Positions 2,703-18,564 of a DNA stretch of 64,000 nucleotides are shown piece after piece (positions within the stretch are counted from its first letter, which is position 1; every line of letters starts with the position of its first letter). The stretch covers positions 1,798,001 to 1,862,000 of the forward strand of contig NZ_CP075896.1 in assembly GCF_018604545.1 (NCBI RefSeq). Reading direction: 5' to 3'. Both the position numbers and the translations under genes were made by a program. The notes under the pieces were generated by a model, which did not search any database, was not told where the DNA came from, and worked only from the letters and a program-made list of their open reading frames with translations. The stretch is from Streptomyces koelreuteriae (GTDB taxonomy: Bacteria; Actinomycetota; Actinomycetes; Streptomycetales; Streptomycetaceae).

Positions 2703-4409
2703 TCATCCGCTCGGCAGCGGCTGGAGCAGCTCCGGCCGCGCCAGCATCCGCCGGGTCGTCCGCCCCGGGTCGAGCACGGCCCGCGCGACGATCCAGCCGG
2801 CCAGGGCGTGCGGTTCGGCGGGGTCGTCGGCCAGCTCGTCGGCGTACCCGGCGAGCGCGGCGGCGGCGTCCCCGGCGGCGAGCCGCTCGTCGGCGGTGTC
2901 CGGGGCGACGGACCGGGCGGCGAAGGCGTGGGTGCGGACGTCGGGCCAGGAGGTGCGGTCGGGACGGAAGCGGGGGCCCGCGGAACCGGCGGACGGCGGG
3001 GCGACGTTGCGCAGCCGCCACTCGGTGCGGTGCAGCGCCGCGGCCGTCCGGGCCCGGGTGAGCGCGGCGTACGGCACCGGCTCGCGCAGCCAGCCGTCGA
3101 GCGTACGGGCGAGCCCCGACACCAGGGCCCGGCCCTGCGGGGTGAGACGCCCCTCCACCAGCAGGGTGCGCACGACGAGCCGGCTCTGCAGCCGGCGCAG
3201 CGCGAAGTGGTACCCGGCCGTGTCGGCCGCCTCGTCGTCCCCCGCCACGGCCATCCGGTCCCGCCAGAACCCCGCGACCCCGGTGAAGGCGTACGCCCCG
3301 TGCAGCAGCCCCGTCAGATGCCGCGGATCCGGCCGCCAGGGGGCGTAGTAGCGCTCCTCCCGGTCGTCGTCGAGCAGCGGGAACAGGTGCAGGAGCGCGG
3401 CCAGTTTGCTGTGCTGGAACTCGTGCACGAGGGTCTCGGCGAGGGCGAGCGGGCAGGAGGGGCGGGCGATGACCATGGCGGCGAAGGAGTCGCCGCTGGT
3501 GGCGGAGACCAGGACGGTCGGCGGCGCTGGCGGCTGTGTGCTCGTACGTCCCCAGGGCACCACGGCCCGTATCGCGCCGGGGTCGAACCGGCCCGGCCCC
3601 TCGCCGCCCGGCGCGGCGAGCAACCCGACGGCCTCCTCGAACAGCCGTTGCCAGGCCTCGGCTTCGTCGGCGTCGAGCGGTGCGGGCGGCAGAGGGTCGT
3701 CCAGGTCGCGGTAGGGGTCGAGGTCTTCGAGGGGGATGGCGACGGTTCCGGCGGGGGTGGGGTGGGCGAGGGTGCGCAGGGGGGTCCAGGCGGGGTTGGC
3801 GTCCGAGGCCGTCGGTGCCGGTCTCGGCAGGGGTTGCGTCGCCGGGCGGATCGTCACGGTGACGGTGCCGCCGTCGCGGCCCGGGCCGGACAGGGTCAGC
3901 TCGCCGCCGCTCGTCCGGGCGTGAGCGACCGTCACCCCGTCCTCCGCGCCGGAGAGCCGGGCCAGCCCCAGCCCCGGCAGCGGCAGTCCGCCGTCGGTGA
4001 GGGGCACCTTGAGGTCCGCCCGCGTCCCGGCGTGCAGCGACGCCGCGACGGCCAGGGCGCACAGATGCCCGGCTTCCGCCCACAGCGGCGGGCCCGACGC
4101 GGTGCCGTGCAGCCGGCGCAGCGCGTGGGCGAGCCAGCCGCCGGTCGCCGGGGCGAGCAGCAGCCGGTCGACCGGCCCGGGTGCCGCGGCGGCGGCCTCC
4201 TTGAGGACGTCCCAGGCCTCGGCGGCCGGGCTCAGCGGCGTGTGCAGCGTGCCGAGCCGGTCCAGCAGGGTCCGCAGAAGCAGCAGCCTGCGCGCCCGCT
4301 CCGCCCGTTCGAGGAAGGCGACGGCCTCGGCGGAGCCGCCTCCCGCCGCCAGTTCCGCGAAGAGCCGTTCGGGCATGCGGAACGGGGCGTGGCGCGGCTC
4401 GCTGGGCAT
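2703..4409 (-). CDS. HExxH-type peptide beta-hydroxylase (putative RiPP-modifying enzyme)
   Basis: A 568-residue protein with LVHEFQHSKLAALLHLF, giving the metal-binding H329-E-F-Q-H333. The surroundings (long N-terminal region, RYYAPWRPDPRHLTGLLHGAYAF after the motif) match the HEXXH-motif family first noted with FxsB radical SAM systems and now described as alpha-ketoglutarate-dependent peptide beta-hydroxylases rather than proteases. Here it stands free, with no radical SAM domain fused or adjacent. It is the last gene of the operon that also encodes the hydrolase, the caspase-like protein and the small precursor-like peptide, separated from the peptide by a stem-loop. Inference: it hydroxylates that peptide. 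A metalloprotease role is the alternative. Confidence 0.82.
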   Translation of the reverse strand: MPSEPRHAPFRMPERLFAELAAGGGSAEAVAFLERAERARRLLLLRTLLDRLGTLHTPLSPAAEAWDVLKEAAAAAPGPVDRLLLAPATGGWLAHALRRLHGTASGPPLWAEAGHLCALAVAASLHAGTRADLKVPLTDGGLPLPGLGLARLSGAEDGVTVAHARTSGGELTLSGPGRDGGTVTVTIRPATQPLPRPAPTASDANPAWTPLRTLAHPTPAGTVAIPLEDLDPYRDLDDPLPPAPLDADEAEAWQRLFEEAVGLLAAPGGEGPGRFDPGAIRAVVPWGRTSTQPPAPPTVLVSATSGDSFAAMVIARPSCPLALAETLVHEFQHSKLAALLHLFPLLDDDREERYYAPWRPDPRHLTGLLHGAYAFTGVAGFWRDRMAVAGDDEAADTAGYHFALRRLQSRLVVRTLLVEGRLTPQGRALVSGLARTLDGWLREPVPYAALTRARTAAALHRTEWRLRNVAPPSAGSAGPRFRPDRTSWPDVRTHAFAARSVAPDTADERLAAGDAAAALAGYADELADDPAEPHALAGWIVARAVLDPGRTTRRMLARPELLQPLPSG

Positions 4410-4440
4410 GCGGGACCTCCGGTCGGGGAGTACGGGCGTA

Positions 4441-4480
4441 CAGACCCCGGCGGGAACACGGCATGCCCGTCCGGGGTCTG
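4441..4480 (-). terminator. stem-loop between precursor-like gene and HExxH gene
   Basis: Perfect 10-base arms CAGACCCCGG (4441-4450) and CCGGGGTCTG (4471-4480) enclose a 20-base loop. The hairpin sits in the 89-base gap between the small peptide gene and the enzyme gene, where RiPP operons often carry an attenuator that lets precursor transcripts outnumber enzyme transcripts. There is no clear U-tract, so partial termination or mRNA protection are both possible. Confidence 0.5.
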
Positions 4481-4498
4481 CCGTGCGGCAGGGTGCGG

Positions 4499-4726
4499 CT
4501 ATTCGGCCCTGGCGGACCCCTCGCCGCCCCCTCGGATGCTCTCGCGTGCGCGCAGGACCTCTCCGAGCAGACGAGCAGAGGGAGGCAGCGGGGCGAGACG
4601 GTCCACCGCGGTCACGGGCAGCCCCGCCAGGTCGACGAGATCCGACTCCCAGACGTCGGTACCACCAGCTGTGGCCGGCTCACGAACGGCGGCTCCGGCG
4701 TGGCACAGAGCGGGCGGCTGGTCCAA
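4499..4726 (-). CDS. candidate RiPP precursor peptide with FxsA-like leader
   Basis: A 75-residue peptide. Its middle, VWESDLVDLAGLPVTAVDRL followed by a predicted helix LPPSARLLGEVLRAR, resembles the leader of FxSxx-COOH (FxsA) precursors as I know them (ES-LVDL-GLPL...L). Its tail, ending GGGEGSARAE, lacks the FxSxx end, so it is not a classical cyclophane substrate. The start is uncertain. I favour the TTG at 4726 because AAGGGGGA lies five bases upstream; in-frame starts up to 4816 are possible. It lies just after the caspase-like gene and just before the HExxH enzyme, as expected for precursor plus modifier. Function is inferred from leader resemblance and context. Confidence 0.6.
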   Translation of the reverse strand: MDQPPALCHAGAAVREPATAGGTDVWESDLVDLAGLPVTAVDRLAPLPPSARLLGEVLRARESIRGGGEGSARAE

Positions 4727-4825
4727 GATGTTCCCCCTTCTCGCACGGTGGCACGCGATGCCCCGTGTCCTTTCCATCATGGCCATTCCTGCCCCGGTCG
4801 AAAACCGTACGATCACGCCACTCGA

Positions 4826-5932
4826 TCATTTCCGATCACGCGGACGCATCAGGGAGGCCTCGAACTCCCGTAACGCAGCGTCCAGTTCGCCCCTGAGATC
4901 TGAATCGTCATCGAGGGAGACGACGGCGTCGAACAGCTCCCACAACATCTCCGGGCGGCCCCGGGCCAGCCTGTTGAGGATACCGACGACATCGGTGCGG
5001 GCCTTGCTGTGCCGGGGCAGCGTGGCAGTGACACGCGGGTCCAACGAGGCGACCACCGCCTGTCGTTCGATGGGGTCTCCCATCAGCGAATAGGCGAGAA
5101 GGGCGTCCACCGCCCGCTGCAACGGCGAGGCCCGACGCCGCCCGGGCGACGGTACGGCCGGCGCCACGATCTCGGTGCGCTCGGGGCTCTGCAGCCGAAT
5201 CTCCGGATACTGCAGAGTACGTCCCGCTTCCCTGAGGGCCGCGATACGTGCCCGTACGGCCGGAAACAGTCCCTCCGGATCGGGCAACGCGGGCAGAACG
5301 GCGACTCGGTCGGCCAACAGCCCGAGCAGGATCTCGGAGAACAGCCCCGTCCCGCGCTCCCGGTCGTTGGCGGCGACCCGCCCCCGCCCGGCCGCCCGCA
5401 GCAGCGTCTGCCGATGGGCGAGGTTGCGCCGCCCCACCGGCAGGGCGTCCGGCGGCAGTTGCTCCCGGAAGGCCAGGTCCTCTTCGAAAGTCTCGCAGGC
5501 GTCCACGATCCACAGCTGATCACCGAAGGCCGCTACGGCGTCCCCGGCGTACCGGTCGAGCGCGGAGTCCAGGTCGATGCCCAGCTTGTCGGCGGTAGTG
5601 GCGTCCGAGCAGAACAACCGCAGGTGCCCGGCCCGGTCGAGGACGCCGTGCCCGCCCCACCACACCCAGAGGACATCGCCCTGGGCCAGGGGCAGTTCGC
5701 GGACGAGGACGCGGCGCAGAGTCGCGTGATCGGCGGGCTGGTGGGCGACCTCGGGGACGTACGGCGGCAGCGGGGCGAGGTGCAGACGGAGCTGGTCGTC
5801 CGGCACCCCGGCCGCACGCAGCAGCCGGTGAAAGGCCACCGCATCGCGCGCCGGCCCGGGCAGATCCCAGCCGGACCCGGCGTCGTACCGCTCGACGCCG
5901 ACGATCAGCGCATGCACCCGGGCGGGGTTCAC
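4826..5932 (-). CDS. caspase-like protease with C-terminal EAD2-like domain
   Basis: A 368-residue protein. The N-terminal half is a caspase/peptidase C14 p20-type fold: HALIVGVERYD, the catalytic histidine in WGGHG (about residue 95) and the catalytic cysteine in IVDACET (about residue 146). The C-terminal 95 residues (DALLAYSLMGDP...RTDVVGILNRL...ELFDAVVSL) match the effector-associated domain 2 pattern used for homotypic docking in bacterial conflict systems. The GTG at 5932 overlaps the TGA of the hydrolase gene (GTGA), so I preferred it to the longer in-frame start at 5977. Inference: a cell-suicide or processing effector controlled by the VMAP/NB-ARC operon, or a leader-processing protease for the adjacent peptide. 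Confidence 0.8.
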   Translation of the reverse strand: MNPARVHALIVGVERYDAGSGWDLPGPARDAVAFHRLLRAAGVPDDQLRLHLAPLPPYVPEVAHQPADHATLRRVLVRELPLAQGDVLWVWWGGHGVLDRAGHLRLFCSDATTADKLGIDLDSALDRYAGDAVAAFGDQLWIVDACETFEEDLAFREQLPPDALPVGRRNLAHRQTLLRAAGRGRVAANDRERGTGLFSEILLGLLADRVAVLPALPDPEGLFPAVRARIAALREAGRTLQYPEIRLQSPERTEIVAPAVPSPGRRRASPLQRAVDALLAYSLMGDPIERQAVVASLDPRVTATLPRHSKARTDVVGILNRLARGRPEMLWELFDAVVSLDDDSDLRGELDAALREFEASLMRPRDRK

Positions 5933-7095
5933 TGCAGCCGGTCCACGATGTGCCGGTAGACCTCGGGGTTCGTCCAATAGGCGCTGTGCGAGGCCGGGAA
6001 GGGCTGACGGCTGTCGACCGCCACGTCCGTGACCCGTCCGGGGAACAGGCCCGCGCCCAGATAGGAGAGCAGGTCGCGGGAGTCGTACAGGTTCAACCAG
6101 TCCGGGACGTGCGACGGCAGGGGTGCGGGGTGTTCGAGGGAGGGCAGTGAGCCCGACTCGTAGAGGAACGGCCCCTGGGATCCCGCCGTCACCAGGAATC
6201 GGACCTGTGGCAGCGGCGCGGAGATCAGGGTGTCCAGGGCGATGATGCCGCCGAGGCTGTGGCCGACCAGGGTGACGGGCGGTTCGAGGCCCGTGATCAG
6301 GTGACGCAGTTCGGCGCGGACCGCCTCGCCGCGGCTGAGGTAGCGCAGGATGTCGGCGGCGGCGGGGTGGGCGGCCTCGGTGAGGGCGCGGCGGCGGCGC
6401 ACAACGGCACGGGATGCCGCCGAACCCGCGACCCGCAGCACCAGAGAGCGCACCCCGCGTTCCGTGCCCCGGGGCTGTGCACCGAGTGCCACGGCGAGCA
6501 CGTCGGCGACGGCGTCACGGCTGTCACCGACCGGCACCAACGGGACGTCGGAGTCCAGGGCGTCGGCGATGACCCGGGCCGCAAGACTGCGTCCGGCGAG
6601 GGCCCCGAGGTCGTCGGGGGCGAGGGCGACGGCGGCCGGGGCGAGCAGCGGATGGGCGGCCAGATCGGTGGCGGCGCGGGCCAGTCCCGGGCCCAGTTCG
6701 GCGGCAGGAACGTCCCCTTGAGCCGCTAGGGCGAGGAGACCGGTTCGTATCGCCTGGTCGGGAGGCAGGGAGCCGGGCGGACGCTCGACGACCTGCGGCG
6801 CGCCGGCCGCGGCGAGCACGAGTTCGGCGTACGGGTCGGCGTAGAGGGCGGCCCAGGCGGCGGCCGACGCGTCGTCGCCGTCACCGTCGGGCAGGCCCCG
6901 GGCCGTGCCGCCCGGCTCGGCGGGAAGGCTGACCCCGCCCGCCGCGAGCGTGGCGCCGTGCGTGCCGCCCCAGTAGTACGGCACGATGCGTAGTCCCTCG
7001 CGCAGGGCGGTCAGTCCGGCCGCCACGCGCCCCGCAAGCTTCGAGAAGCCTGGTTCGCGCACCCCTGTTCCATGGATGAAGACGACCGTCGCCAT
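5929..7095 (-). CDS. alpha/beta hydrolase (lipase/esterase-like)
   Basis: A 388-residue cytosolic protein with no signal peptide. It opens with VVFIHGTGVREPGF, where HGTG is an oxyanion-hole motif, and has the nucleophile elbow TLVGHSLGG with Ser280. The late ASHSAYWTNPEVYRHI segment supplies a probable catalytic histidine. The closest resemblance is to bacterial proteins annotated as lipase class 3 or PGAP1-like. It is the first gene of the hydrolase/caspase/peptide/HExxH operon and overlaps the caspase start by four bases, which implies translational coupling. Alpha/beta hydrolases are recurrent effectors in EAD-linked conflict systems. Its substrate is unknown. Confidence 0.8.
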   Translation of the reverse strand: MATVVFIHGTGVREPGFSKLAGRVAAGLTALREGLRIVPYYWGGTHGATLAAGGVSLPAEPGGTARGLPDGDGDDASAAAWAALYADPYAELVLAAAGAPQVVERPPGSLPPDQAIRTGLLALAAQGDVPAAELGPGLARAATDLAAHPLLAPAAVALAPDDLGALAGRSLAARVIADALDSDVPLVPVGDSRDAVADVLAVALGAQPRGTERGVRSLVLRVAGSAASRAVVRRRRALTEAAHPAAADILRYLSRGEAVRAELRHLITGLEPPVTLVGHSLGGIIALDTLISAPLPQVRFLVTAGSQGPFLYESGSLPSLEHPAPLPSHVPDWLNLYDSRDLLSYLGAGLFPGRVTDVAVDSRQPFPASHSAYWTNPEVYRHIVDRLQ

Positions 7096-7247
7096 GTGCC
7101 CCCCGTGACACCGGTACAGAGTTGTGTACGACTGCCGTTACGCCGTCAACTTACCAGTATCATAAGGAGGTTGGGGGTCGAGCACACGTGCGAGGACCCG
7201 CCCGCGGCCGAACCACCGGCCATGACAACTGGACACAGGGGGACGCA
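7096..7247. promoter_or_regulatory. divergent promoter region
   Basis: This 152-base gap separates the hydrolase operon from the antiporter gene and must carry both promoters. It contains a relatively A/T-rich stretch around 7130-7165 and an unused-looking AAGGAGG at 7164-7170. An in-frame GTG at 7188 lies too far from that sequence for normal spacing. No clear operator was recognised. Confidence 0.4.
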
Positions 7248-8612
7248 GTGAGCGCTGACGCGGTGGTCACGCATTTCCTGTTCGCCTCGGCCCTGATCCT
7301 GGCGGTCGGCCATGGCGCCGGCTGGGTGGCCCAGCGGCTGAGGCAGCCGTACATCGTGGGGCAGCTGACGGCGGGCATCGCCCTCGGTCCCTCCTTGCTC
7401 GGCAGTGCGGCGCCGGATGTCTACCGGACGGTGTTCCCCCAGGAGATCGGCACCGCGCTGACCGGGCTCGCGCAGTTCTCCCTGGTGGTCTTCCTGTTCG
7501 CGGTGGGATACGAGCTGGATCTGAAGATCCTGGGCGACCGGGCGCGCACGGTCGTGACGGTGGCGCTGGCGGCGTTCGTGGTCCCGATGATCGTGGGCAG
7601 CGGCTGCGCGCTGCTGTTCCGGGAGCAGTTGCGGGCCCTGGACATGCCCCCGCTCACCACCGGCATGGTGCTGTTCGCCGGGGTCGCCCTGTCGATAACG
7701 GCCGTACCGGTCCTGACGGCCATCGTGCGGGAGAACAACCTGGCCGACACGGTGCCGGGCGTCCTCGCGGTGTCCGCGGCCGGGCTGCTCGATGTGATCG
7801 GGTGGACGGTGCTGGCCGGGACGATGCTGGACAGCGACAGCGGTGAGCACGTCCTGGGCTGGCAGTGGCGGGCCCTCATCGCGGCCGGGTTCGCCCTGCT
7901 GATGCTGGCGGCGGCCCGGCCCGTGCTGCGCAGGCTGCTGTGGCGGACCCGGATGGAGCCGTCCCTGCGGCTGGCGGTGCTCATCGGCTTCGCCTGTGCG
8001 TCGGCGTCCGTGACGCAGTACCTCGGGCTGCACGCCATCTGCGGTGCGCTGCTCGCGGGGATCGTCTGCCCGCGTGAGCAGCGCGGCACGCTCGACCCGG
8101 ATCTGCTGCGGCCGCTGCATGTCGTCAGCTCGCTGCTGGTGCCCTACTTCTTCGTGTTCTCCGGGCAGTCCGTCACCCTCAACAGCATGAATGCCACCGG
8201 CTGGATCGCGCTGCTGGTGGTGACGGTGCTGGCGGTCACCACGAAGGTCGGCAGTGGCGTGGTGGCGGCCCGGATGGGCGGACTGGACCGCGACGACGCC
8301 CGGACCGTCGGTGTCCTGCTGAGCGCCCGCGGTCTCACGGAGCTGATCGCCCTCAACGCCGGCTTCCAGGCGGGCCTGGTGAGCAAGCCCCTCTATACGG
8401 TGCTGGTCTTCATGGCCCTGGCCACCACGCTGCTCACGCAGCCCCTGCTGATCCTGGTGCGCCGCCTGTCCGACCACGAGCCGACCCGCGCCCCGGGCCC
8501 TGCCGAGGTCGTGCCGGTGCATCTGACTCTCCCGGACCACGCGGGCGACACCCCGGCACCTCGTCACCCGTCGGACGGCGTGCCCCCCACACCGGTGGCG
8601 GACGCGGGCTGA
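7248..8612 (+). CDS. CPA2-type cation:proton antiporter (Kef-like)
   Basis: A 454-residue membrane protein with about twelve hydrophobic segments and typical Na+/H+ exchanger landmarks: IVGQLTAGIALGPSLLG near the start, FAVGYELDLKIL, GVALSITAVPVLTAI and LLSARGLTELIALNAG. It should exchange K+ or Na+ for protons across the cytoplasmic membrane. The C-terminal tail is hydrophilic and has no TrkA-N domain. The GTG at 7248 was chosen because AGGGGGA sits four to five bases upstream. It is transcribed away from the hydrolase operon and converges on the TPR gene. Ion transporters occur near conflict systems, but similar antiporters are also common in unrelated Streptomyces loci. Confidence 0.88.
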   Translation: MSADAVVTHFLFASALILAVGHGAGWVAQRLRQPYIVGQLTAGIALGPSLLGSAAPDVYRTVFPQEIGTALTGLAQFSLVVFLFAVGYELDLKILGDRARTVVTVALAAFVVPMIVGSGCALLFREQLRALDMPPLTTGMVLFAGVALSITAVPVLTAIVRENNLADTVPGVLAVSAAGLLDVIGWTVLAGTMLDSDSGEHVLGWQWRALIAAGFALLMLAAARPVLRRLLWRTRMEPSLRLAVLIGFACASASVTQYLGLHAICGALLAGIVCPREQRGTLDPDLLRPLHVVSSLLVPYFFVFSGQSVTLNSMNATGWIALLVVTVLAVTTKVGSGVVAARMGGLDRDDARTVGVLLSARGLTELIALNAGFQAGLVSKPLYTVLVFMALATTLLTQPLLILVRRLSDHEPTRAPGPAEVVPVHLTLPDHAGDTPAPRHPSDGVPPTPVADAG

Positions 8613-8657: not shown

Positions 8658-11600
8658 CTACAGCGGCATCGGCGCCATGTCGCACTCGATACGGCGGCCC
8701 TGGCGTGCGGCCACGTGCCACGGGTGGTCGGCGCGAACCACGCGGGCGAAGCCGTCCGTCGCCTTGCGCTGCAGTTCGTCGGCCTCCGCCCTGCGGCCCA
8801 GGCCCCGCAGGTCGAGGCCGAGGTTCGCCGTGCAGGCCAGCGTCAACGGGTGCTCCTCACCGGCGATCTCGGCGAGCAGCGGCAGATTGGCCTGGTCGAT
8901 CTCGTGCGCCCGCTCGAAGTCGACGCGTGCGTAGGCCGTGTTGGCCTGGCCGATGGCGACGGTCAGCGCGGTGATGTGCCGGGCGCCCACACCCGCGGCC
9001 AGCCGGCTCGCCGCGTCGTCCTCCAGCTCCTGTGCCTGGTCCAGGGCCCCGAGGGCACGCAGGGTGGCGGCCAGGTTCGCCTTGGTCAGGAGGGTGTACG
9101 CGTGGCCCTGACCGAGGCGCTGCTCGAATCGACGCAGGGTCTCCTCCGCCAGCTCCCGGGAGCCGTCGAGGTCGCCGTTCAGACGCCGGTCGACGGACAC
9201 GTTGGTCGCCGACGACACGGCGTCGAAGTGGTCCTTTCCGTAGCGGGAGACGAAGCGCCGCAGCGTCTCGTCCGAGAGCTTGGCCGCCTCTTCGTGGGCC
9301 CCGTCCCGGCGTCGGCAGACCGCGAGATTGCGGGCGATGCGCAAGGTGAGCGGGTGTTCCTCACCGAGTTCGGTGCGCGCCCGGCGGTACGCGTCCTCCT
9401 GGAAGTCGCGGGCGCCGGGGTAGTCCCCGCTCTCGCGCATGTCGATGGAGAGCGCGTTGAGGGTGTTGAGGGTGAAGAAGCTGGCAGGGCCGAACAGCAG
9501 CTCACGCTGCTGGGCGTTCTCCTGGTCCAGCGGCAGCGCTTCCCTGAACCGGCCGCACAGCCGCAGGGCGACTCCCCAGGCGTGGGTGGCCCGCAGCGTC
9601 ATCGGATCGTCCGGGCCGAACAGGGACCGGGCCAGCTCGGTGGCCTCCTGCGTCAGCGCCCGGGCTTCCTCGAACCCGCCCTGGTAGCCGCGGGCGTCCG
9701 CCATCTCGCACAGCGAGTCGATCAGGTTCTCGGAGTCGACATCGGAGCGGCGCGAGATCTCCAGGGCCTTCTCGGTGAGCGGGATGGACTCGGGGACCTG
9801 GCCGTTCTGCCGCAGCAGGAATCCGAGGCTCTTCGTCATCCGGAGGACGTGGAGGTCATCCTCGTCCGAGGACCCGAGCCAGGCGCTCCAGGCCTGGCGG
9901 GCGAAGTCGGCGGCGCCCACGTGGTCTCCCCAGTAGTAGAGGAACCACACCGTGTCGAAGACCAGCTCCCGCACATAGGTGTCGGTGCTGGTCACGGCCT
10001 GTGAGGTGAGCACATGGGGCAGCAGCGCCTGATAGGCACGCCATTCCAGTGACGAGCCGGAGGGGCCGGGCTTGGCGGCCGACAGCAACTGGTGCGCGGC
10101 GTCACGCATCCGCTCCCGCTCGTCGGCGCTCAGTTTGGCCAGGAGCACCGTCTGCAGCAGGCGGTGCATCTGGAGGGTGTCGGAACGCGGGTCCACCCGG
10201 ACCAGGGAGAACTGGCTCAGGTCGCGGACGGCCCGGTTGAGTTTGATCGACTCCCGCAGCAGGGGATCGACCTCGGGCGTGACATTGACGCCGCGGCTCC
10301 CGCGCAGCATCGCCCTCGGGATGGGCTCGGGGGCCATGCTGGCGCAGATGTCGAGCAGCTGCCGGGCGCCCGGGTTGTTCTCCTTGATCCGCTCCAGCGA
10401 GATGTCCCAGGCGGCGGCGACGGAGACCGGATAGTCGGGAGCCGGGTCGAGTTCGAGGATCTCGGGACTGCGCTGCGCGAGCAGGTCGAGATACTCGTCG
10501 ACCTGCATGCCGGTCACCGCGCGCCAAGCGCCCGCCTGCTCCACCGCGAGCGGCAGGTCGCCCAGGGCGTCGGCGAGCCGCCCGGCGTCCTCGACGGACA
10601 GGTCGGGCGAGCGCCTCTGGAGCAGCTCGATCGACTCCTCGCGCTCGAACACGTTGACCGGCAGCGACGTGGCCACCCTTTCCCAGGCCCGGTTCCGGGA
10701 CGTGACGATGACCTTGCCCGGTCCGTTGGCCGGGAAGTACTGGCGCACCGTGTCGACGTCCTCGGCGTTGTCGAAGACGAGCAGCCAGCTGTCGTACGGC
10801 GTTCCGGTGCTCAGCGCCTCCAGTACGGCCGGCACGGCCGTGTTGGCGGCGGGGGCGCCGAGGCTGTCCTGGCCGGTGGGGGCGACGCCGAGCTGTGCCG
10901 CCAACTGGGCCAACGCGGCGAGAATGAGGCTCTCCCGCTCGGCGGGGATCCAGCAGATCACCCGGTAGTCGTGCTGGTGGGTGTAGACGTACTCGAGTGC
11001 CAGCTGGGACTTGCCGACGCCACCGAGCCCATGGAGGGCGTTGGGGAGCACCGCCGCCGTGTCCTGAGCCGCCAGCTGCTCCTCCACGGCACTCAGCAGC
11101 GCCTGCCGGCCGACGAACGACGTGTTGCGCAGAGGCACGTTCACCAGGAGGGCGGCGGGCGTTCCGGTCGTGGTGCTCGGCATGGGGAGCTCAGCCTCCG
11201 AGGGTTCTTGTGGGATGGCGTCGGATACCAGGGGTGGCACGGGTGGTTCTCCAGCTTCTTGGGGGGCGGTCGACGGTGGCAGACTTCCCGTTCCGTCGGA
11301 CAATCCCCCAGGAGCCGCGCGGTTCACCTCGGAAGTTGCAGCTCCGGGCGTTCCCGGACTCACTCGTTCGGCGTCACCGGGCCCTCGGGCCCTGGACAGA
11401 CCGGGCTCGATCCGGCGGGCCCGCTCGGAGTACGGCCCCGAGAGCGCCCGCATCACGGCCAGCTCGCTGCGCGCCCAGCCCCGCTCGGACGGGTCGGGCA
11501 GCGTGGCGCCCATCGGGTCGCGCAGGGCGGCGCGCAGGGCGAGGCCCCGGGCGCCCGCGGCGGGAAGTTCGCCCACCACGCTGACGGTGTGGGCGAGTTG

Positions 11601-13205
11601 GCTGCGGGTGGTGGTGGCGAGCAGTTCCTCGCGGACCCCGTCGGCGAACTCCGGACGGCCCTCGCCGCCGCTGTCCCAGTCGATCAGCCCGCCCATCAGG
11701 ATCTCGGCGAGGTGGTCCGGGCCGGTCTCCGGCATGGTGCGCCGCCGCAGCTGTTCCACGAGGTCGAACTCGAAGGGAACCGCCGCCAGTTGCGTTGCGA
11801 GGCGGCGTGCCGCGGGGGTGGCCAGCGTGAAGAATCGGCGTACGGCGGCTTTGGCGGCGCGCGGGAAGCGGGGGGCGCGCAGGCCGGGCGCGGGCGATCC
11901 CTTGGTGAGGGTGCCGGCCAGGACGACGGGCAGGGCGCGGCGCACTCCGCGTTCCCCGGTGACGAGGTCGGCCCAGGCCGCGAGCGAGGCGGGCTTGAGG
12001 GAGAGCACGGGGACGGGCACGGAGCCGTCGCCCGCGTCGGGCAGCGGTCGCAGGGGGTCGGGGCCGCCGGGCGGCGCCCAGTGCTCGAGTCCGTCGTTGG
12101 CGGCGCCGAAGCCGCCGGCCTCCAGGACGGCCGGGTGGGGGTAGAGCGAGGCGCGGTGGCGCAGGTGCGGCGGGAGCAGATGCACCAGGGCCGTGGGGCC
12201 GGCGTGGGCGAGCCGGGCGAGCAGGTCGTCGGCGGCGGGCGAGGCCCAGCCGTGGGCGAGCCCGTCGGTGACGACGAGGAAGACGCGGTCACCGCGTCCG
12301 CCGAGGAGTTCGGCGGGGTCGGCGGCGGCCCGGCCGACGCTCCAGCGCAGGGTGGCGGTGCCGGTGCGCGGCACGTTCACCCGGACCGTTCGCACGGCCC
12401 GGAAGGCGCCGCTGTGCTCGGCGGCCTGGGCGAGCCGGGCGGTGGACTCCTCCCAGATCCGCAGGGTGGGCGCGTCGTCCACCAGCAGGACCAGGTCGAA
12501 GGCGGCCGTCCGGGCGGGACGCAGGAACGGCACCCACATGCCGTCGATGATCCCCTGCTCGGCCGTGGTCTCCTCGTCGAGTTCGAGCGTGTCGCGGGAC
12601 GGCACACGGCGGGCCAGCTGGTGCAGGGCGCGGGCGAACCGGGCGGTGGCGCGGCCCGGGGCCTGCTGCGGGCGGTCGTCGGCGGGCAGCAGCGGCTGCC
12701 CGAGGCGCAGGGTGAAACGGCCCTCGGCGTCGGGTAACAGGCGCGCCGAGGCGCGGGGCTCTCCGGGCAGGGGGGAGCCGGTCCCCTGCCGCGGACGGTC
12801 GTCGAGACCGTCGGGAGTGGCCGGCGGGCGCGGAGCGCGCACCGCGTCGGGGGTGGTGTCAGGGGAGGGACCCGGCTGGTCGGCCGGTGAGGTGTCCCGC
12901 TGGTTCGTGTCCTCCGTGTCCCGCGGGCGTACGGGAGTCGGGGCCGGGGATGTCGTCGTCCGGCCCGGCGCCGGCTCGGGGCCGGAGGAGGCCGGGCCGC
13001 CGTGGCGGTTCCAGTGCACGGCGAGCCAGACCGCGTCGGCGACGTCCTGCCAGCGCGGGAGGGACTGTTCCAGGGTGTCCGGTGGCGTCGCTCCGTGCTC
13101 AGCCGCCTGATCGGCGGACTCGGGCAACGCCGAAGGAGGCGACGACCCCGAAACGGGAAATCCGTCGCCGAGCCCGGATGCGTGCTCCCTGGGATAGCCC
13201 TTCAA
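8658..13205 (-). CDS. vWA-like (SAV_2336 N-terminal type)/NB-ARC/TPR regulator
   Basis: A 1515-residue protein. Residues about 50-75 hold the RWQDVADAVWLAVHW helix of SAV_2336-type proteins. A degenerate vWA domain follows (AFDLVLLVDDAPTLRIWEES, near residue 240). An NB-ARC STAND ATPase begins near 715, with Walker A GLGGVGKSQ, Walker B LLVFDNAED, VTSRN sensor and LPLAVEQAGAW. From about 1085 to the end are roughly ten 42-residue TPRs ending ECDMAPMPL, close to the FxSxx-COOH system TPR family. I chose the TTG at 13205, which lies just downstream of the MoxR stop with AAGGG upstream; longer starts would run inside MoxR. Role by family: an NLR-like sensor/activator of a vWA-MoxR-VMAP ternary conflict system. 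Confidence 0.85.
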   Translation of the reverse strand: MKGYPREHASGLGDGFPVSGSSPPSALPESADQAAEHGATPPDTLEQSLPRWQDVADAVWLAVHWNRHGGPASSGPEPAPGRTTTSPAPTPVRPRDTEDTNQRDTSPADQPGPSPDTTPDAVRAPRPPATPDGLDDRPRQGTGSPLPGEPRASARLLPDAEGRFTLRLGQPLLPADDRPQQAPGRATARFARALHQLARRVPSRDTLELDEETTAEQGIIDGMWVPFLRPARTAAFDLVLLVDDAPTLRIWEESTARLAQAAEHSGAFRAVRTVRVNVPRTGTATLRWSVGRAAADPAELLGGRGDRVFLVVTDGLAHGWASPAADDLLARLAHAGPTALVHLLPPHLRHRASLYPHPAVLEAGGFGAANDGLEHWAPPGGPDPLRPLPDAGDGSVPVPVLSLKPASLAAWADLVTGERGVRRALPVVLAGTLTKGSPAPGLRAPRFPRAAKAAVRRFFTLATPAARRLATQLAAVPFEFDLVEQLRRRTMPETGPDHLAEILMGGLIDWDSGGEGRPEFADGVREELLATTTRSQLAHTVSVVGELPAAGARGLALRAALRDPMGATLPDPSERGWARSELAVMRALSGPYSERARRIEPGLSRARGPGDAERVSPGTPGAATSEVNRAAPGGLSDGTGSLPPSTAPQEAGEPPVPPLVSDAIPQEPSEAELPMPSTTTGTPAALLVNVPLRNTSFVGRQALLSAVEEQLAAQDTAAVLPNALHGLGGVGKSQLALEYVYTHQHDYRVICWIPAERESLILAALAQLAAQLGVAPTGQDSLGAPAANTAVPAVLEALSTGTPYDSWLLVFDNAEDVDTVRQYFPANGPGKVIVTSRNRAWERVATSLPVNVFEREESIELLQRRSPDLSVEDAGRLADALGDLPLAVEQAGAWRAVTGMQVDEYLDLLAQRSPEILELDPAPDYPVSVAAAWDISLERIKENNPGARQLLDICASMAPEPIPRAMLRGSRGVNVTPEVDPLLRESIKLNRAVRDLSQFSLVRVDPRSDTLQMHRLLQTVLLAKLSADERERMRDAAHQLLSAAKPGPSGSSLEWRAYQALLPHVLTSQAVTSTDTYVRELVFDTVWFLYYWGDHVGAADFARQAWSAWLGSSDEDDLHVLRMTKSLGFLLRQNGQVPESIPLTEKALEISRRSDVDSENLIDSLCEMADARGYQGGFEEARALTQEATELARSLFGPDDPMTLRATHAWGVALRLCGRFREALPLDQENAQQRELLFGPASFFTLNTLNALSIDMRESGDYPGARDFQEDAYRRARTELGEEHPLTLRIARNLAVCRRRDGAHEEAAKLSDETLRRFVSRYGKDHFDAVSSATNVSVDRRLNGDLDGSRELAEETLRRFEQRLGQGHAYTLLTKANLAATLRALGALDQAQELEDDAASRLAAGVGARHITALTVAIGQANTAYARVDFERAHEIDQANLPLLAEIAGEEHPLTLACTANLGLDLRGLGRRAEADELQRKATDGFARVVRADHPWHVAARQGRRIECDMAPMPL

Positions 13206-13206
13206 T

Positions 13207-14298
13207 TCAGCGGCCCTTCGCGAGGTCGCGCAGGAGCATTTCCACGAGCTTACGCCCGTCACCATCCGCCTGGAAACCACCCGCCGTCGTCATCTGGACA
13301 GCGTTGAGCAACTGGTCCAGGGAGTGGGTTCCGCCGGCCTGGACCCGCTGAACGAACAGGTCGACGAGGTCTTCGGTGCCCTGCGGGCGGGTTCCGAGGT
13401 GCCCTTCGACCATGGCCAGGAGTTGCTCCCGGGTGGGCGTGCGCATCTCCAGCGGGAGGCAGCGCCGGCGGAAGGCCGCGGGGAATTCGCGTTCTCCGTT
13501 GCTGGTGATCACCACGACCGGGAACTCCCGGCACTCGATGCGCCCGTCGCGCACCTCGGCGCGGCCCCCGGGGTCGCTGGTGTGGACGCGCGCGCTGTCC
13601 TCGGCGTCGCGTACCAGCTCGGGGACTTCATAGCTTCCGTTCTCCAGGACGTGCAACAGGTCGTTCGGCAGGTCGATGTCGCTCTTGTCGAGCTCGTCGA
13701 CGAGAAGCACACGGGGACGATCGTAGGGCAGCAGCGCGGTCCCCAGGGGGCCCAGCGTGATGAAGTCACCGAGAAACGGGGGTAGTTGGCGCGGATTTTG
13801 CTGAAGCGCGGTGTTGACGTCCGTAGCCGGATCGATGTCGTCCGGTTCCAGGGACGCGGCATGCCGCAGGCCGGCCCGCCAGGCGGCGATGGCCTGGGCG
13901 CGGCCCATGGCGTCGTGGGCGTAGAGGCCCTCGCGCAGGGTGGTGCGGCTGACGATGTTCCACTCCAGGACCCGGCCGAGGCCGAGTTCGCGGGAGATGA
14001 GGTAGGCCAGGGTGGACTTGCCGACGCCGGGCGGGCCGGTGATCAGCAGGGGCCGGCGCAGCAGCAGCGCGGTGTTGACGACGTCGATCTCGTCCTTGCC
14101 CAGCTGCGGAGTGACGTCACCGGGGCCCAGGCGGCGCAGCGCGGCCTGGGGGTCGGCCGCCGGTACGGGCCGGGCCGGTTCGCCCCGGAAGCTGCGCCAG
14201 GGCGGCGGCACGGGCAGATCGGGCGGGACGGCGGGGGCGCTGCCCGTGCCGTGGAAGATCCACCAGTCGTTCGGGACCGTCTGCTCCTGCCCGCTCAT
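13207..14298 (-). CDS. MoxR-type AAA+ ATPase
   Basis: A 363-residue protein with Walker A GPPGVGKST (88-96), Walker B VLLVDELDKSD (about 198-208), sensor-1 region VVITSNGEREFP and arginine-finger segment AFRRRCLPLEM. It belongs to the MoxR clade, which works as a chaperone-like ATPase with vWA partners. Its ATG overlaps the VMAP stop (ATGA) and its stop nearly touches the TPR gene start, so the three proteins are almost certainly made together. The N-terminal 60 residues are proline-rich (PPDLPVPPPWRSF) and may be a flexible tether. This is the NTPase of the predicted ternary system. Confidence 0.92.
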   Translation of the reverse strand: MSGQEQTVPNDWWIFHGTGSAPAVPPDLPVPPPWRSFRGEPARPVPAADPQAALRRLGPGDVTPQLGKDEIDVVNTALLLRRPLLITGPPGVGKSTLAYLISRELGLGRVLEWNIVSRTTLREGLYAHDAMGRAQAIAAWRAGLRHAASLEPDDIDPATDVNTALQQNPRQLPPFLGDFITLGPLGTALLPYDRPRVLLVDELDKSDIDLPNDLLHVLENGSYEVPELVRDAEDSARVHTSDPGGRAEVRDGRIECREFPVVVITSNGEREFPAAFRRRCLPLEMRTPTREQLLAMVEGHLGTRPQGTEDLVDLFVQRVQAGGTHSLDQLLNAVQMTTAGGFQADGDGRKLVEMLLRDLAKGR

Positions 14299-15845
14299 GC
14301 GGATGCCTCCTCGCTGGCGAGATCGCCTGGGTCGGTGGGCTGGAAGTCAACGGGACGCGTCGGATCGTCCCAGAAAAAGCCGATGTGCCGGCCGAGCAGC
14401 TCGCCTGGGCCCCGGCCCTCGCTCTCGGCGTTCCTGCGCAGGAGGTGGACGGCCACCGGGATCCTCGCCGGTGTGGGCGCCGCGGCGAACAGGGCGGTCA
14501 CCACTTCCCGGCGCTCCTCGCGGAAGGCACCTCTGCGGTCCCAGATCGCGAGCCCCACCCCTTCCGCTATGGCGGCCTTGAGAGCCTCCAGTGCCAGGAC
14601 GTCGGACGGGGCGTCGAGCACCACCGCCGTATGTCTTGGTTCCCCGGCGAGCCCGGCCTGCCACGCGCCGATCCGGCCGCCGTCCGGTTCGCGCCAGCCG
14701 TGCACCTGGACGCCGTGCTCGTTCAGGGTTCGCCAACGCTCCTGCCACTGGTCGCGGACCAGGGCGTCGTCCGTGCGCATCCGCTCCAGGCTGCGCAGAT
14801 GCACCCCGTACTTCAGGCTGAGCGGCAGCGGCTGCCCGTCGCCGATCCGGAAGGTCAGACCGGCCACATCGTGGTTGAGGAGTTCGTACGGAAGGACGAA
14901 CTCGATGTACGGCGGTGGCTGCCGGCGTCCGCCCGGGTCGGGTTCACGGGGCGCCGACCAGAGGCGGGCGCCCTGCCGTAACGCGCGCTGGACGGCCGGG
15001 CCGAGCTCGTCGAGGGTGGTCGTGGCGGGTTCGCCGGGCTGTGGGTCCCAGCGGCCGGGGACGGTGTTGAGCCAGGGGCGGACGACGATCTCGCCGGAGC
15101 CGTCCCGTGCCGGTTCGACGGCGACGACCAGGCAGCGCGGGATGTCCGGATCGCTCTTGGCCGAGCCGCGGGCCTTGCGGCGTTCCTCCACCGGCCCGGT
15201 CAGGCCCGCGCGCCGGGCCCAGTCGTCGGCCCAGCCGGACAGGGCGGTGCGGTGCCCCGGGCTGGCGGCGAGCAGGGCGGCGTGGTCGATCAGCAGGACG
15301 GCGGGGGGCAGTCCGTCCGGCTGCACGTTCCAGTCCAGGACGTGCGCGAGGAGTTGCTCCGGGGCGAGTCCGGTGGGCAGGTCGAGGCCGTTGAGCTCCT
15401 CGACCAGGGCGTCGCGCAGCCGGGCGGCGGGGAGTTCGCCCTTGGCGAGGAGGGCGCGGGCGCCGGCCTCGTCGTCGCGGGAGAGGGGCCCCTGGAGGGC
15501 AGGGGGCGGGGCGGGCGCGAGCCACTGGTCGAGCAGCTGATCGAGTTCGTCGCCCGCCAGTTCGCCTTCGAGGATCCGCACCACCTCGACCAGTACGCGT
15601 TCCCCGCCCGGCATGTTCAGCGCGGCGCGCGTCAGCAGGACCACGTCCTCGCGCAACTTGATGCCGCGCAGGTCGATCCGGCGCCCCAGCAGGCCTCCGA
15701 GGACGACACCGAAGTGCAGCCGCCCCTGCGCGTCCTCCATGCAGCCCAGACCGCACAGGGCGTTGGTCAGCCCCAGCAGCAGCCGTAAGCCTTCCGCACG
15801 CCCGGACCCGCCCTCGGGTTCGCCGAACCCCGCGTGTGTCTCCAC
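14295..15845 (-). CDS. VMAP (vWA-MoxR-associated protein) with N-terminal EAD2-like domain
   Basis: A 516-residue protein. Residues about 20-108 (LTNALCGLGCMEDA...REDVVLLTRAALNMPGGERVLVEVVRILEG) share the EAD2 pattern with the C-terminus of the caspase-like protein at 4826-5932. The rest, including YIEFVLPYELLNHDVAGLTF, a GWREPDGGRIGAW segment and the C-terminal GFFWDDPTRP, fits the VMAP middle/C-terminal domains. No enzyme motif is seen. The GTG at 15845 was chosen because AGGGGGA stands seven bases upstream; longer in-frame starts are less convincing. It is the first gene of the VMAP-MoxR-TPR operon. Family knowledge suggests it connects the ATPase module to effectors through its EAD. Confidence 0.78.
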   Translation of the reverse strand: METHAGFGEPEGGSGRAEGLRLLLGLTNALCGLGCMEDAQGRLHFGVVLGGLLGRRIDLRGIKLREDVVLLTRAALNMPGGERVLVEVVRILEGELAGDELDQLLDQWLAPAPPPALQGPLSRDDEAGARALLAKGELPAARLRDALVEELNGLDLPTGLAPEQLLAHVLDWNVQPDGLPPAVLLIDHAALLAASPGHRTALSGWADDWARRAGLTGPVEERRKARGSAKSDPDIPRCLVVAVEPARDGSGEIVVRPWLNTVPGRWDPQPGEPATTTLDELGPAVQRALRQGARLWSAPREPDPGGRRQPPPYIEFVLPYELLNHDVAGLTFRIGDGQPLPLSLKYGVHLRSLERMRTDDALVRDQWQERWRTLNEHGVQVHGWREPDGGRIGAWQAGLAGEPRHTAVVLDAPSDVLALEALKAAIAEGVGLAIWDRRGAFREERREVVTALFAAAPTPARIPVAVHLLRRNAESEGRGPGELLGRHIGFFWDDPTRPVDFQPTDPGDLASEEASA

Positions 15846-16023
15846 CGACTTTCCCCCTGAGCCGGTATACCTGCCTGATCGACCAGCGAAGTTAGCACGG
15901 CAACCAGCGGTTAACCAGGGACGAATGGGACCGGAAGGACGACGTCCGGCCAGGATCGCCCCAGACGGGACAAGCCTGGCCGGATTCGATCGGACTCGAC
16001 CTTGTGGAGGCCGCCCTTCCGGC
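15846..16023 (-). promoter_or_regulatory. presumed promoter of the VMAP operon
   Basis: This 178-base gap lies between the end of the Pnkp gene and the VMAP start on the same strand. It carries the VMAP ribosome-binding site at its left edge and is otherwise without open frames of note. I recognise no defined operator or terminator. Confidence 0.35.
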
Positions 16024-18564
16024 TCAGAGCCTCGGGTCCACCGGCTCCGATTCCAGCGCCAGCACCCCGAACACCGCCTCGTGCACCCGCCACAGCGGCT
16101 CACCGTCGGCGAGTCGGTCCAGGGCCTCCAGGCCCAGGGCGTACTCGCGGATCGCCAGGGACCGCTTGTGGTTGAGGAAGCGGGAGCGCAGGCGGGCGAG
16201 GTTCTCCGGGCGGGTGTACTCGGGGCCGTAGATGATCCGCAGGTACTCGCGGCCGCGGCATTTGATGCCGGGCTGGACGAGGCGGCCCTGGGGGTCGCGG
16301 ACGAGGGCGCCGATCGGCTTGACGACCATGCCCTCGCCGCCGCGGCCGGTCATCTCCAGCCACCAGTCGACACCGGCCCGGACGGACTCCGGGTCGGCCG
16401 TGTCGACGTACAGCCGCCGGGTGGTGCGCAGCAGGCCGCTGCCGTCGTGCTCGACGAGCCGGTCGAGCAGGGCGAGCTGCTCGTCGTGGGGCAGGGCGGT
16501 GAGGCTGCGGCCCTGGACGGCGAGGATCTGGAACGGTGCCAGGTGGACGCCGTCCAGGCCGTCCGTGGTCCAGCAGTAGCGGCGGTAGGCCTCGGTGAAC
16601 GCGGCGGCGTCGGCGGAGCGTTCGCGGGTGCGGGCCAGCAGGCCGGTGACGTCCACGCCGCGTGCGGCCGTGCCCTCCAGCGCGGCCAGCGCGCCCGGGA
16701 GCACCGCGCCGGAGGCGGCGCCCACCGCGGCGTACTGGGAGCGCAGCAGGCCGGAGGCCTTCAGGGACCAGGGCATCAGTTCGGCGTCCAGCAGCAGCCA
16801 GTCGGTGGCCAGTTCGTCCCAGAGGCCGGCCTCGCCGATCGCCGTGCGCACCCGGTCGAGGATCTCCTCGGTGAGGGCGTCGTCGTCGAGGAAGGGGCGG
16901 CCGGTGCGGGTGTAGAGCGCCCCGGTCGGGCCGTCCACGCCGAAGCGCTTGCGGGCCGCGTCCGCGTCCCGGCAGACCAGCGCCACCGCCCGCGATCCCA
17001 TGTGCTTCTCCTCGCACACGACCCGCTCGACCCCGTCCGCCGCGTACTGCGCGAAGGCCTCGACGGGGTGTTCGAGGTAGCCATCGACCTTGCTGGTCGC
17101 CGTCGGTGCCATGGTGGGCGGGAGGTACGGCAGCAGCCGCGGGTCCACCGCGAAGCGGCTCATGACCTCCAGGGCCGCCGCCGCGTTCTCCTCGCGGATC
17201 GAGATCCGGCCCTGGTGCCGGGTCTCCACGATCCGGCGGCCCTGCACGTCGGCCAGGGCCAGCGGGCGGCCGTCGTGTCCGCCGGGGGCCTCCGTGAGCA
17301 GCGGCTTCGCGGGCTCGTACCAGACGCGCTCCGCCGGTACGTCGACCAGCTCGCGCTCCGGCCAGCGCAGCGCGGTGAGCTTGCCGCCGAAGACGGCGCC
17401 GGTGTCCAGGCAGATGGTGTTGTTGAGCCAGGTGGCCTCCGGGACGGGGGTGTGACCGTAGACGACGGCCGCACGACCTCGGTAGTCCTCCGCCCAGGGG
17501 TAGCGCACCGGCAGGCCGAACTCGTCGGTCTCGCCGGTGGTGTCGCCGTACAGGGCGTGGCTGCGGACCCGGCCGGAGGTGCGGCCGTGGTACTTCTCGG
17601 GCAGGCCGGCGTGGCAGACGACCAGGCGGCCGCCGTCGAGGACGTAGTGGCTGACGAGGCCGTCGAGGAACTCCCGCACCTCGGCGACGAACTCCTCGCT
17701 CTGGCCCGTCATCTGCTCGATGGTCTCGGCGAGGCCGTGGGTGTGCCGGACCTTGCGGCCGCGCAGGTGACGGCCGTACTTGTTCTCGTGGTTTCCGGGC
17801 ACGCACAGGGCGTTGCCGGACTTCACCATCGCCATGACGCGGCGCAGCACGCCCGGGCTGTCGGGGCCGCGGTCGACCAGGTCGCCGACGAAGACGGCGG
17901 TACGGCCCTCGGGGTGGACTCCGTCCTTGTAGCCCAGCTTGCCGAGCAGCGAGTCCAGTTCGGCGGCGCAGCCGTGGATGTCGCCGACGATGTCGAAGGG
18001 GCCGGTGAGGTGGGTGAGGTCGTTGAAGCGCTTCTCGGTGACGACGGTGGCGTGCTCGACCTCGTCGACGCCGCGCAGGATGTGCACCTTGCGGAAGCCC
18101 TCGCGCTCCAGGTGCCTGAGGGAACGGCGCAGTTCCCGGGTGTGGCGCTGGATGACGCGGCGGGGCATGTCGGCGCGGTCGGTGCGGCCCGCGTTGCGCT
18201 CGGCGCACACCTCCTCGGGCACGTCGAGCACGATGGCTATCGGCAGGACGTCGTGACTCCGGGCCAGGTCGACCAGCTGGCGTCGGGCGTCGGGCTGCAC
18301 GCTGGTCGCGTCCACGACGGTGCGGCGGCCGGCGGCGAGGCGCTTGCCCGCGATGTAGTGCAGGACGTCGAAGGCGTCCTTGGTGGCGCTCTGGTCGTTC
18401 TCGTCGTCCGAGACGAGGCCGCGGCAGAAGTCGGACGAGATGATCTCCGTGGGCTTGAAGTGCCTGCGGGCGAAGGTGGACTTGCCGGAGCCGGAGGCAC
18501 CGACGAGCACCACCAGGGAGAGGTCGGTGACGGGCAGGACCCGCCCCTCGCGTACGTCGGTCAT
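16024..18564 (-). CDS. pnkp: polynucleotide kinase-phosphatase/ligase (RNA repair Pnkp)
   Basis: An 846-residue three-module RNA repair enzyme. The N-terminal 5'-OH kinase has GASGSGKST (22-30). The central binuclear metallophosphatase, which removes 2',3'-cyclic or 3' phosphates, has GDIHGC, GDLVDRGPDS and GNHEN. The C-terminal ligase-type nucleotidyltransferase has the nucleotidyl lysine K520 in EEKHMGSRA. Bacterial Pnkp adenylylates but needs Hen1 to complete ligation, and hen1 lies directly upstream with a four-base ATGA overlap. Together they mend tRNAs cut by ribotoxins and mark the repaired site with a 2'-O-methyl group. Position next to a predicted conflict operon is notable. Confidence 0.95.
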   Translation of the reverse strand: MTDVREGRVLPVTDLSLVVLVGASGSGKSTFARRHFKPTEIISSDFCRGLVSDDENDQSATKDAFDVLHYIAGKRLAAGRRTVVDATSVQPDARRQLVDLARSHDVLPIAIVLDVPEEVCAERNAGRTDRADMPRRVIQRHTRELRRSLRHLEREGFRKVHILRGVDEVEHATVVTEKRFNDLTHLTGPFDIVGDIHGCAAELDSLLGKLGYKDGVHPEGRTAVFVGDLVDRGPDSPGVLRRVMAMVKSGNALCVPGNHENKYGRHLRGRKVRHTHGLAETIEQMTGQSEEFVAEVREFLDGLVSHYVLDGGRLVVCHAGLPEKYHGRTSGRVRSHALYGDTTGETDEFGLPVRYPWAEDYRGRAAVVYGHTPVPEATWLNNTICLDTGAVFGGKLTALRWPERELVDVPAERVWYEPAKPLLTEAPGGHDGRPLALADVQGRRIVETRHQGRISIREENAAAALEVMSRFAVDPRLLPYLPPTMAPTATSKVDGYLEHPVEAFAQYAADGVERVVCEEKHMGSRAVALVCRDADAARKRFGVDGPTGALYTRTGRPFLDDDALTEEILDRVRTAIGEAGLWDELATDWLLLDAELMPWSLKASGLLRSQYAAVGAASGAVLPGALAALEGTAARGVDVTGLLARTRERSADAAAFTEAYRRYCWTTDGLDGVHLAPFQILAVQGRSLTALPHDEQLALLDRLVEHDGSGLLRTTRRLYVDTADPESVRAGVDWWLEMTGRGGEGMVVKPIGALVRDPQGRLVQPGIKCRGREYLRIIYGPEYTRPENLARLRSRFLNHKRSLAIREYALGLEALDRLADGEPLWRVHEAVFGVLALESEPVDPRL

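Follow-up and report, generated by a model that had tools for sequence, protein, structure and literature searches.

The window, by which we mean the whole stretch of 64,000 nucleotides of Streptomyces koelreuteriae DNA that was analysed, encodes a free-standing protein of the αKG-HExxH family and, upstream of it, a small precursor-like peptide. Beyond this pair lie genes for a caspase-fold protein, a probable α/β-hydrolase, a large AP-ATPase/TPR protein, a MoxR-like ATPase, and a VMAP protein (Table 1).

Table 1. Features of the peptide–HExxH pair and its neighbourhood (positions counted from the first letter of the window).
Feature	Position	Strand	Remarks
Free-standing αKG-HExxH protein	2703..4409	-	568 aa; HEFQH = residues 329-333
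Precursor-like peptide	4499..4726	-	75 aa; FxsA-like leader, RxD-type tail; stop included; TTG start
Peptide start codon TTG; stop codon	4726-4724; 4501-4499	-
C-terminal tail Ala72-Arg73-Ala74-Glu75	4502..4513	-	consensus [AG]-R-A-[ED]
R-x-R (Arg59, Arg61), precedes core	4544..4552	-	possible leader cut; neither Arg varies among 73 distinct named relatives
Leader motif VWESDLVDLAGLPV	4613..4654	-	residues 25-38; Asp32 unchanged across 73 distinct named relatives
Ribosome-binding site GGGGGA	4732..4737	-	five bases ahead of TTG; conserved
Conserved non-coding block, caspase–peptide gene interval	4738..4838	-	TGATC boxes, CATGATGG, inverted repeat; far end overlaps the end of the caspase gene
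Caspase-fold protein with EAD2	4826..5977	-	PF00656 27.3 bits (cut-off 21.4), PF19956 37.4 (cut-off 23.8); putative start
Probable α/β-hydrolase	5929..7095	-	sub-threshold matches only, to several α/β-hydrolase models
Antiporter-like gene	7122-8612	+	by translation; between hydrolase and TPR genes
SAV_2336 N-terminal domain + NB-ARC (AP-ATPase) + TPR protein	8658..13280	-	1540 residues; putative start
MoxR-like AAA ATPase	13207..14298	-	PF07728 (AAA_5) 27.8 bits, cut-off 22
VMAP protein (EAD2, VMAP-M0, VMAP-C)	14295..16103	-	putative start

An initial annotation had assigned the large protein to the HExxH hydroxylases by its HEFQH motif, and a profile search bears this out: TIGR04267 scores 173.5 bits against a cut-off of 40, and the model of the FxsBH extension reaches 82 bits, under its cut-off of 225. 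Across 40 relatives, H329, E330, H333, W358, R359, D361, and R363 are invariant. The fold matches those of ChlH (PDB 8s5f, 312 aligned residues) and SjiH (PDB 22nu and 22ob, 402 aligned residues), with matches ranked below these two resembling common helical arrangements; the metal motif and the fold of the αKG-HExxH family are both present. For SjiH, no paper was found in the open-access literature.

The same annotation had read the 75-residue frame upstream, with its TTG start and strong ribosome-binding site, as a peptide gene beside the HExxH gene, and comparison with relatives upholds that reading. We assembled 161 loci, namely 80 named loci (picked by likeness to the HExxH protein, 80 of 145 being confirmed), one stretch of the window genome, and 80 loci around other Streptomyces HExxH genes; together they yield 164 HExxH genes, or 162 distinct ones, since two were fetched twice. 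A frame of the peptide family stands directly upstream of 131 of the 164 (129 of the 162 distinct genes). The 33 genes without it comprise 24 with FxsB upstream in the stretch, five at contig ends, and four with neither; at locus L158, peptide and FxsB are both present, with FxsB about 4 kb off. Among 75 named relatives, the ribosome-binding site best supports a TTG start in 64, GTG in eight, and ATG in three. At one locus (L105), the leader frame of the peptide is shifted while the tail frame is intact, which may reflect a sequencing error or a decaying copy.

The window peptide has no NCBIfam match at E ≤ 10 and no Pfam match at E ≤ 1. It is matched at E ≤ 0.01 in 41 of 295 Streptomyces genomes; the strong matches sit just upstream of a HExxH orthologue, and the weakest fall in long unrelated frames. 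In a class-level set of 394 genomes, the enzyme profile matches 87 genomes from 21 of 137 genera, compared with 23 genomes from 8 of 137 genera for the peptide profile. The dN/dS ratios of the peptide, which are not near neutrality, range from 0.24 to 0.51 against its 14 nearest relatives and have a median of 0.52, with 97% below 1, over 2627 pairs with dS of 0.1 to 1.5. The small frame is a gene, paired with the HExxH gene and under selection.

The further claim of a leader like that of FxsA on a peptide that lacks FxSxx is supported. The FxSxx precursor model TIGR04268 (cut-off 28 bits) leaves the window peptide unmatched, its best relative reaching 19.5 bits; in reverse, the profile of the peptide family does find FxSxx precursors in two FxsB loci (L229, end WGFNSAL, 6.6e-10; L202, end WGFQSAF, 8.3e-8). 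The C-terminus of the window peptide (...GGGEGSARAE) has no FxSxx and closes with SARAE. Judged by sequence, the leader is FxsA-like and the peptide itself is not an FxSxx precursor. One relative also gave a match to NF038399 (Os1348/NHLP family, which would suggest a link to PosA) at 13.3 bits (cut-off 40, E 0.069); being weak and confined to the leader, it was set aside.

The neighbouring genes place the pair in a larger system. The 1540-residue protein exceeds the cut-offs of NF041121 (387.8 bits), NF040586 (792.2), and PF00931 (28.5), as the VMAP protein does those of PF20028 (114.3), PF19916 (60.3), and PF19956 (32.2); the AAA ATPase falls below the cut-off of bpMoxR, the sole MoxR model listed for it. 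By tblastn, with short contigs scored as misses, the TPR protein is found in 65 of the 80 named loci, the caspase likewise in 65 if fragments are counted, and the hydrolase in 58. The TPR model cannot separate the types of system described below, because NCBI names it ‘FxSxx-COOH system’.

Some features of the neighbourhood vary. The antiporter-like gene has a homologue in 34 of the 80 named loci. Downstream of the pair, at 317-2693 on the reverse strand, lie ornithine carbamoyltransferase-like and arginine deiminase-like genes (by translation), with homologues in 42 and 44 of the 80, nearly all closer relatives. Within the window clade, caspase and hydrolase have been lost from L095, L096, L097, L100, L101, L102, L109, and L119, where the genes for peptide, HExxH protein, and TPR protein persist; L088 and L094 retain a piece of the caspase gene.

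Systems of this kind were described by Kaur et al. (eLife 2020; PMC7159879). In the available text of that paper, VMAP ternary systems carry a ‘peptide-processing system’, which pairs a zincin-like metallopeptidase with a small diverging protein; the latter belongs to the FxSxx, RxD, acidic, or FtsH-associated type. The FxSxx type is accompanied by a radical SAM enzyme, and FtsH systems by one of another kind; RxD and acidic types have the AP-ATPase fused to the vWA protein, and RxD-type peptides, which lack FxSxx, adjoin the ‘metallopeptidase’ without radical SAM; the peptide is proposed to be a toxin or a signal amplifying the system. The pair in the window is an RxD-type peptide cassette within a VMAP/MoxR-like/AP-ATPase/caspase cluster and a member of the class described in 2020, so the pairing of peptide and HExxH gene was already known. 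The initial annotation mentioned neither the larger cluster nor that description. In the window, the SAV_2336 domain joined to NB-ARC and TPR is a candidate for the vWA part. Clusters of this type are predicted to act in self-defence.

The pair may have a control region of its own. The block ahead of the peptide gene was examined in 76 upstream stretches (the window and named relatives), in counts that ignore homology among the stretches. TGATC boxes with a spacing of 13 bases (near -104/-91) occur in at least 37 of the 76, and CATGATGG in 58. An inverted repeat (e.g. GTGGCAtcccgTGCCAC) adjoins the ribosome-binding site, the best arm being at least 6 in 78% of stretches versus 37% after shuffling. 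These elements suggest that the block is a promoter/operator belonging to the peptide and HExxH genes.

The core of the peptide, called unusual by the initial annotation, is ordinary for its kind, as an [AG]RA[ED] end is the rule in the window clade. Across 73 distinct named relatives, Ala or Gly occupies position -4 in 71, Arg -3 in 67, Ala -2 in 70, and Glu or Asp -1 in 68; the odd tails are HEAA, GWAV, GGEG (early stop), GGGA, SQAH, and GLAD, with one GRVD. On the enzyme tree, 56 of the 60 window-clade rows with a peptide end in R-x-[DE], and two of the other four have neither Ala nor Gly at -4. Tail changes were counted in those 56 rows only, a selection that fixes -3 and -1. In them, -2 is always Ala, -5 takes 19 changes among six residues, and -4 takes at least ten changes, all of them between Ala and Gly. 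By the genetic code, about one in six amino-acid changes from an Ala codon yields Gly. Ten Ala/Gly changes out of ten therefore make -4 look like a position under selection for a small residue, on a tree of which many forks are weak.

Core classes likewise track the enzyme tree (25 changes versus a shuffled mean of 71.9, with none of 200 shuffles as low), an agreement that near-copies inflate and that is expected if enzyme and core evolve together. Among the 120 homologues listed of 348, for some of which PF27839 is listed (a family not recovered with the Pfam copy used here), 116 end in R-x-[DE]; this is not independent evidence, because the query profile had such a tail in 17 of 17 rows. Nor is the [AG]RA[ED] tail a general tag, since other HExxH-linked clades end in quite different cores (PSRFD, PPKRFD, PTRRVD, YNPQRDE, SWTV, Cys-ended, STxxGS, and others). 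FxsA-type leaders are also seen to serve HExxH-only systems with several different cores. In another bacterial family (f18) of the class-level set, peptides end in SRRFD, SRRLD, NRTD, or DRQD, beside FxSxx ones. A Cys lies at or near the peptide end in L156, L161, L162, L167, L168, L174, L175, L178, and L184, and STxxGS cores occur in L166, L171, L195, L199, L204, and L207; both groups have FxsA-like leaders and free-standing HExxH genes, and they lie outside the four types given in the available text of PMC7159879.

We consider it probable that the pair is an RxD-type cassette of a VMAP-type cluster in which the enzyme oxidises the C-terminal tail of the peptide without an FxsB cyclophane step. 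The initial annotation had proposed hydroxylation only; the closest precedent for such a tail is oxidative cleavage and comes from the available text of PMC12636437, where PosC and PflC hydroxylate Gln and remove a C-terminal ARMD, leaving an amide. Its authors read the removal as proceeding via α-hydroxylation of Ala: replacement of this residue by Gly gave a partial cut and by Gln, Ser, or Val no cut, and R, M, and D of the tail were each dispensable. Also relevant is PesO of nitrilobacillin biosynthesis, which, according to the available text of PMC13060819, hydroxylates Pro before R(V/T)DN. The window peptide has an Ala four residues from its end, followed by R-x-acidic (A-R-A-E), and oxidation of the tail, in the boldest form its clipping, is predicted because the window clade keeps the residue class that PosC permits at the matching place. 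The likeness of R-x-[DE] to R-M-D may matter little for catalysis, given that PosC does not need R, M, and D singly.

On the tail-oxidation reading, the FxsA-like leader would dock on the HExxH enzyme, and Fe(II)/αKG chemistry would hydroxylate the core. At the Ala or Gly before R-A-[ED], α-hydroxylation could cleave the backbone so that a C-terminal amide remains, as with PosC at ARMD; a peptidase, perhaps the caspase, might remove the leader by cutting at the conserved R-x-R; and the peptide product might be the ligand or toxin of the AP-ATPase/caspase machine, these last three steps being the least certain. Among 82 genes in stretches of at least 18 kb, a caspase is present for 49 of 62 with R-x-R versus 3 of 20 without. 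A link between R-x-R and caspase is only a lead, because it follows phylogeny and the caspase gene is absent at 13 of the 62 loci whose peptide keeps R-x-R. By analogy with amidated peptide hormones, we tentatively propose, as an idea rather unlikely to prove correct, that RxD-type precursors would be clipped so that a tag is shed and the amidated peptide becomes the ligand of an NLR-like machine.

The strongest competitor, which we rate as a serious possibility somewhat below an even chance, is that the enzyme goes no further than β-hydroxylation of core residues (Glu, Asn, Pro, or others) and that the tail is kept for some other use, e.g. recognition by the TPR/AP-ATPase protein. Many cores contain NP, EP, or GP, and most characterised members of the family (ChlH-type, PesO, BipH) hydroxylate without cutting, as far as the available texts on them extend; β-hydroxylation by itself leaves unexplained why -4 remained Ala or Gly through at least ten changes. 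The proposal of 2020 was that the enzyme is a true metallopeptidase, which hydrolyses the precursor and releases a C-terminal peptide (PMC7159879). Hydrolysis of truncated leaderless substrates by PflC would agree with this; the available text of the same study (PMC12636437) states that the full-length peptide was not hydrolysed by PflC without oxygen, and the fold of the window enzyme fits the αKG oxygenases SjiH and ChlH, not peptidases. We judge a peptidase improbable. Little credence is likewise due to the idea that the peptide, rather than being a substrate, has a regulatory or scaffolding role at the locus: a dedicated protease or exporter was not identified and the peptide might function at full length, but the leader is kin to FxSxx precursors, the frame lies upstream of the enzyme gene, and the core classes track the enzyme tree.

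Tail oxidation as proposed here involves no FxsB, and the claim of the initial annotation that the hydroxylase-family gene stands free of that enzyme is sustained. FxsB occurs in none of the 80 named loci (up to 9 kb per side where the contig allowed); the stretches L174–L233 span only about 5 kb, so its absence there is local. It was found in 187 of the 295 Streptomyces genomes. Close HExxH orthologues (at least 52% identity) occur in 29 genomes, of which 13, three of them single-contig, have no FxsB match. This indicates that FxsB is dispensable for keeping the module. The window genome does have one FxsB over the cut-off (at 832 kb, the window being at 1798-1862 kb), with its own FxSxx precursor and HExxH gene, and this speaks for the idea that an FxsB from another locus forms a cyclophane in the 75-residue peptide beforehand. 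The idea is hardly credible, since, besides those 13 genomes, the peptide has neither FxSxx nor an aromatic residue after Trp26.

The tail-oxidation reading joins two literatures, that of RxD-type peptides with their ‘peptidase’ (2020) and that of an αKG oxygenase family, one member of which cuts at A-R-M-D. In the available texts, no mutual citation between the lines on RxD conflict-system peptides and on αKG-HExxH oxygenases was found, and the words ‘conflict’, ‘Kaur’, ‘Aravind’, and ‘RxD’ are all absent from the text of PMC12636437. No paper addressing RxD-type peptide chemistry turned up in the open-access literature; judged from that literature only, oxidative tail clipping would be new for such systems. 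If the reading is true, a peptide from an NLR/caspase-like locus bears a predictable, mass-measurable modification, and the role of RxD-type peptides is therefore directly testable.

Among known structures, that of ChlH (PDB 8s5f) shows the HExxH domain from a fusion with radical SAM, and the SjiH chain 22nu bears the deposited name radical SAM core domain protein; the window enzyme stands alone and carries an additional helical part at its C-terminus. FxSxx-COOH systems (FxsA/FxsB/HExxH; TIGR04268/TIGR04269/TIGR04267) share with the window leader homology, the HExxH enzyme, and the TPR protein model; they have an FxSxx end and FxsB, both of which the window cassette lacks. PesO (PMC13060819, available text) has in common with the window an HExxH enzyme whose site of action lies close to a C-terminal R-x-D-N motif, and differs in hydroxylating Pro and in its MNIO and nitrile synthetase partners. 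PflC/PosC with PflA/PosA (PMC12636437, available text) share, by their published description, a free-standing HExxH enzyme and a tail of A-R-x-acidic; PflA/PosA have a nitrile-hydratase-type leader, a Gln repeat, and an MNIO-nitroreductase partner, whereas the window peptide has an FxsA-like leader in place of the nitrile-hydratase type and no Gln repeat. The VMAP/RxD systems in the available text of PMC7159879 share with the window the VMAP-C protein, the AAA ATPase, the AP-ATPase/TPR protein, the EAD2-caspase and α/β-hydrolase, and a zincin-like protein with a small diverging protein and no radical SAM. The window tail reads R-A-E, without the letter D of that type, and relatives have R-A-D or R-V-D; the enzyme, a peptidase in that description, is read here as an αKG oxygenase.
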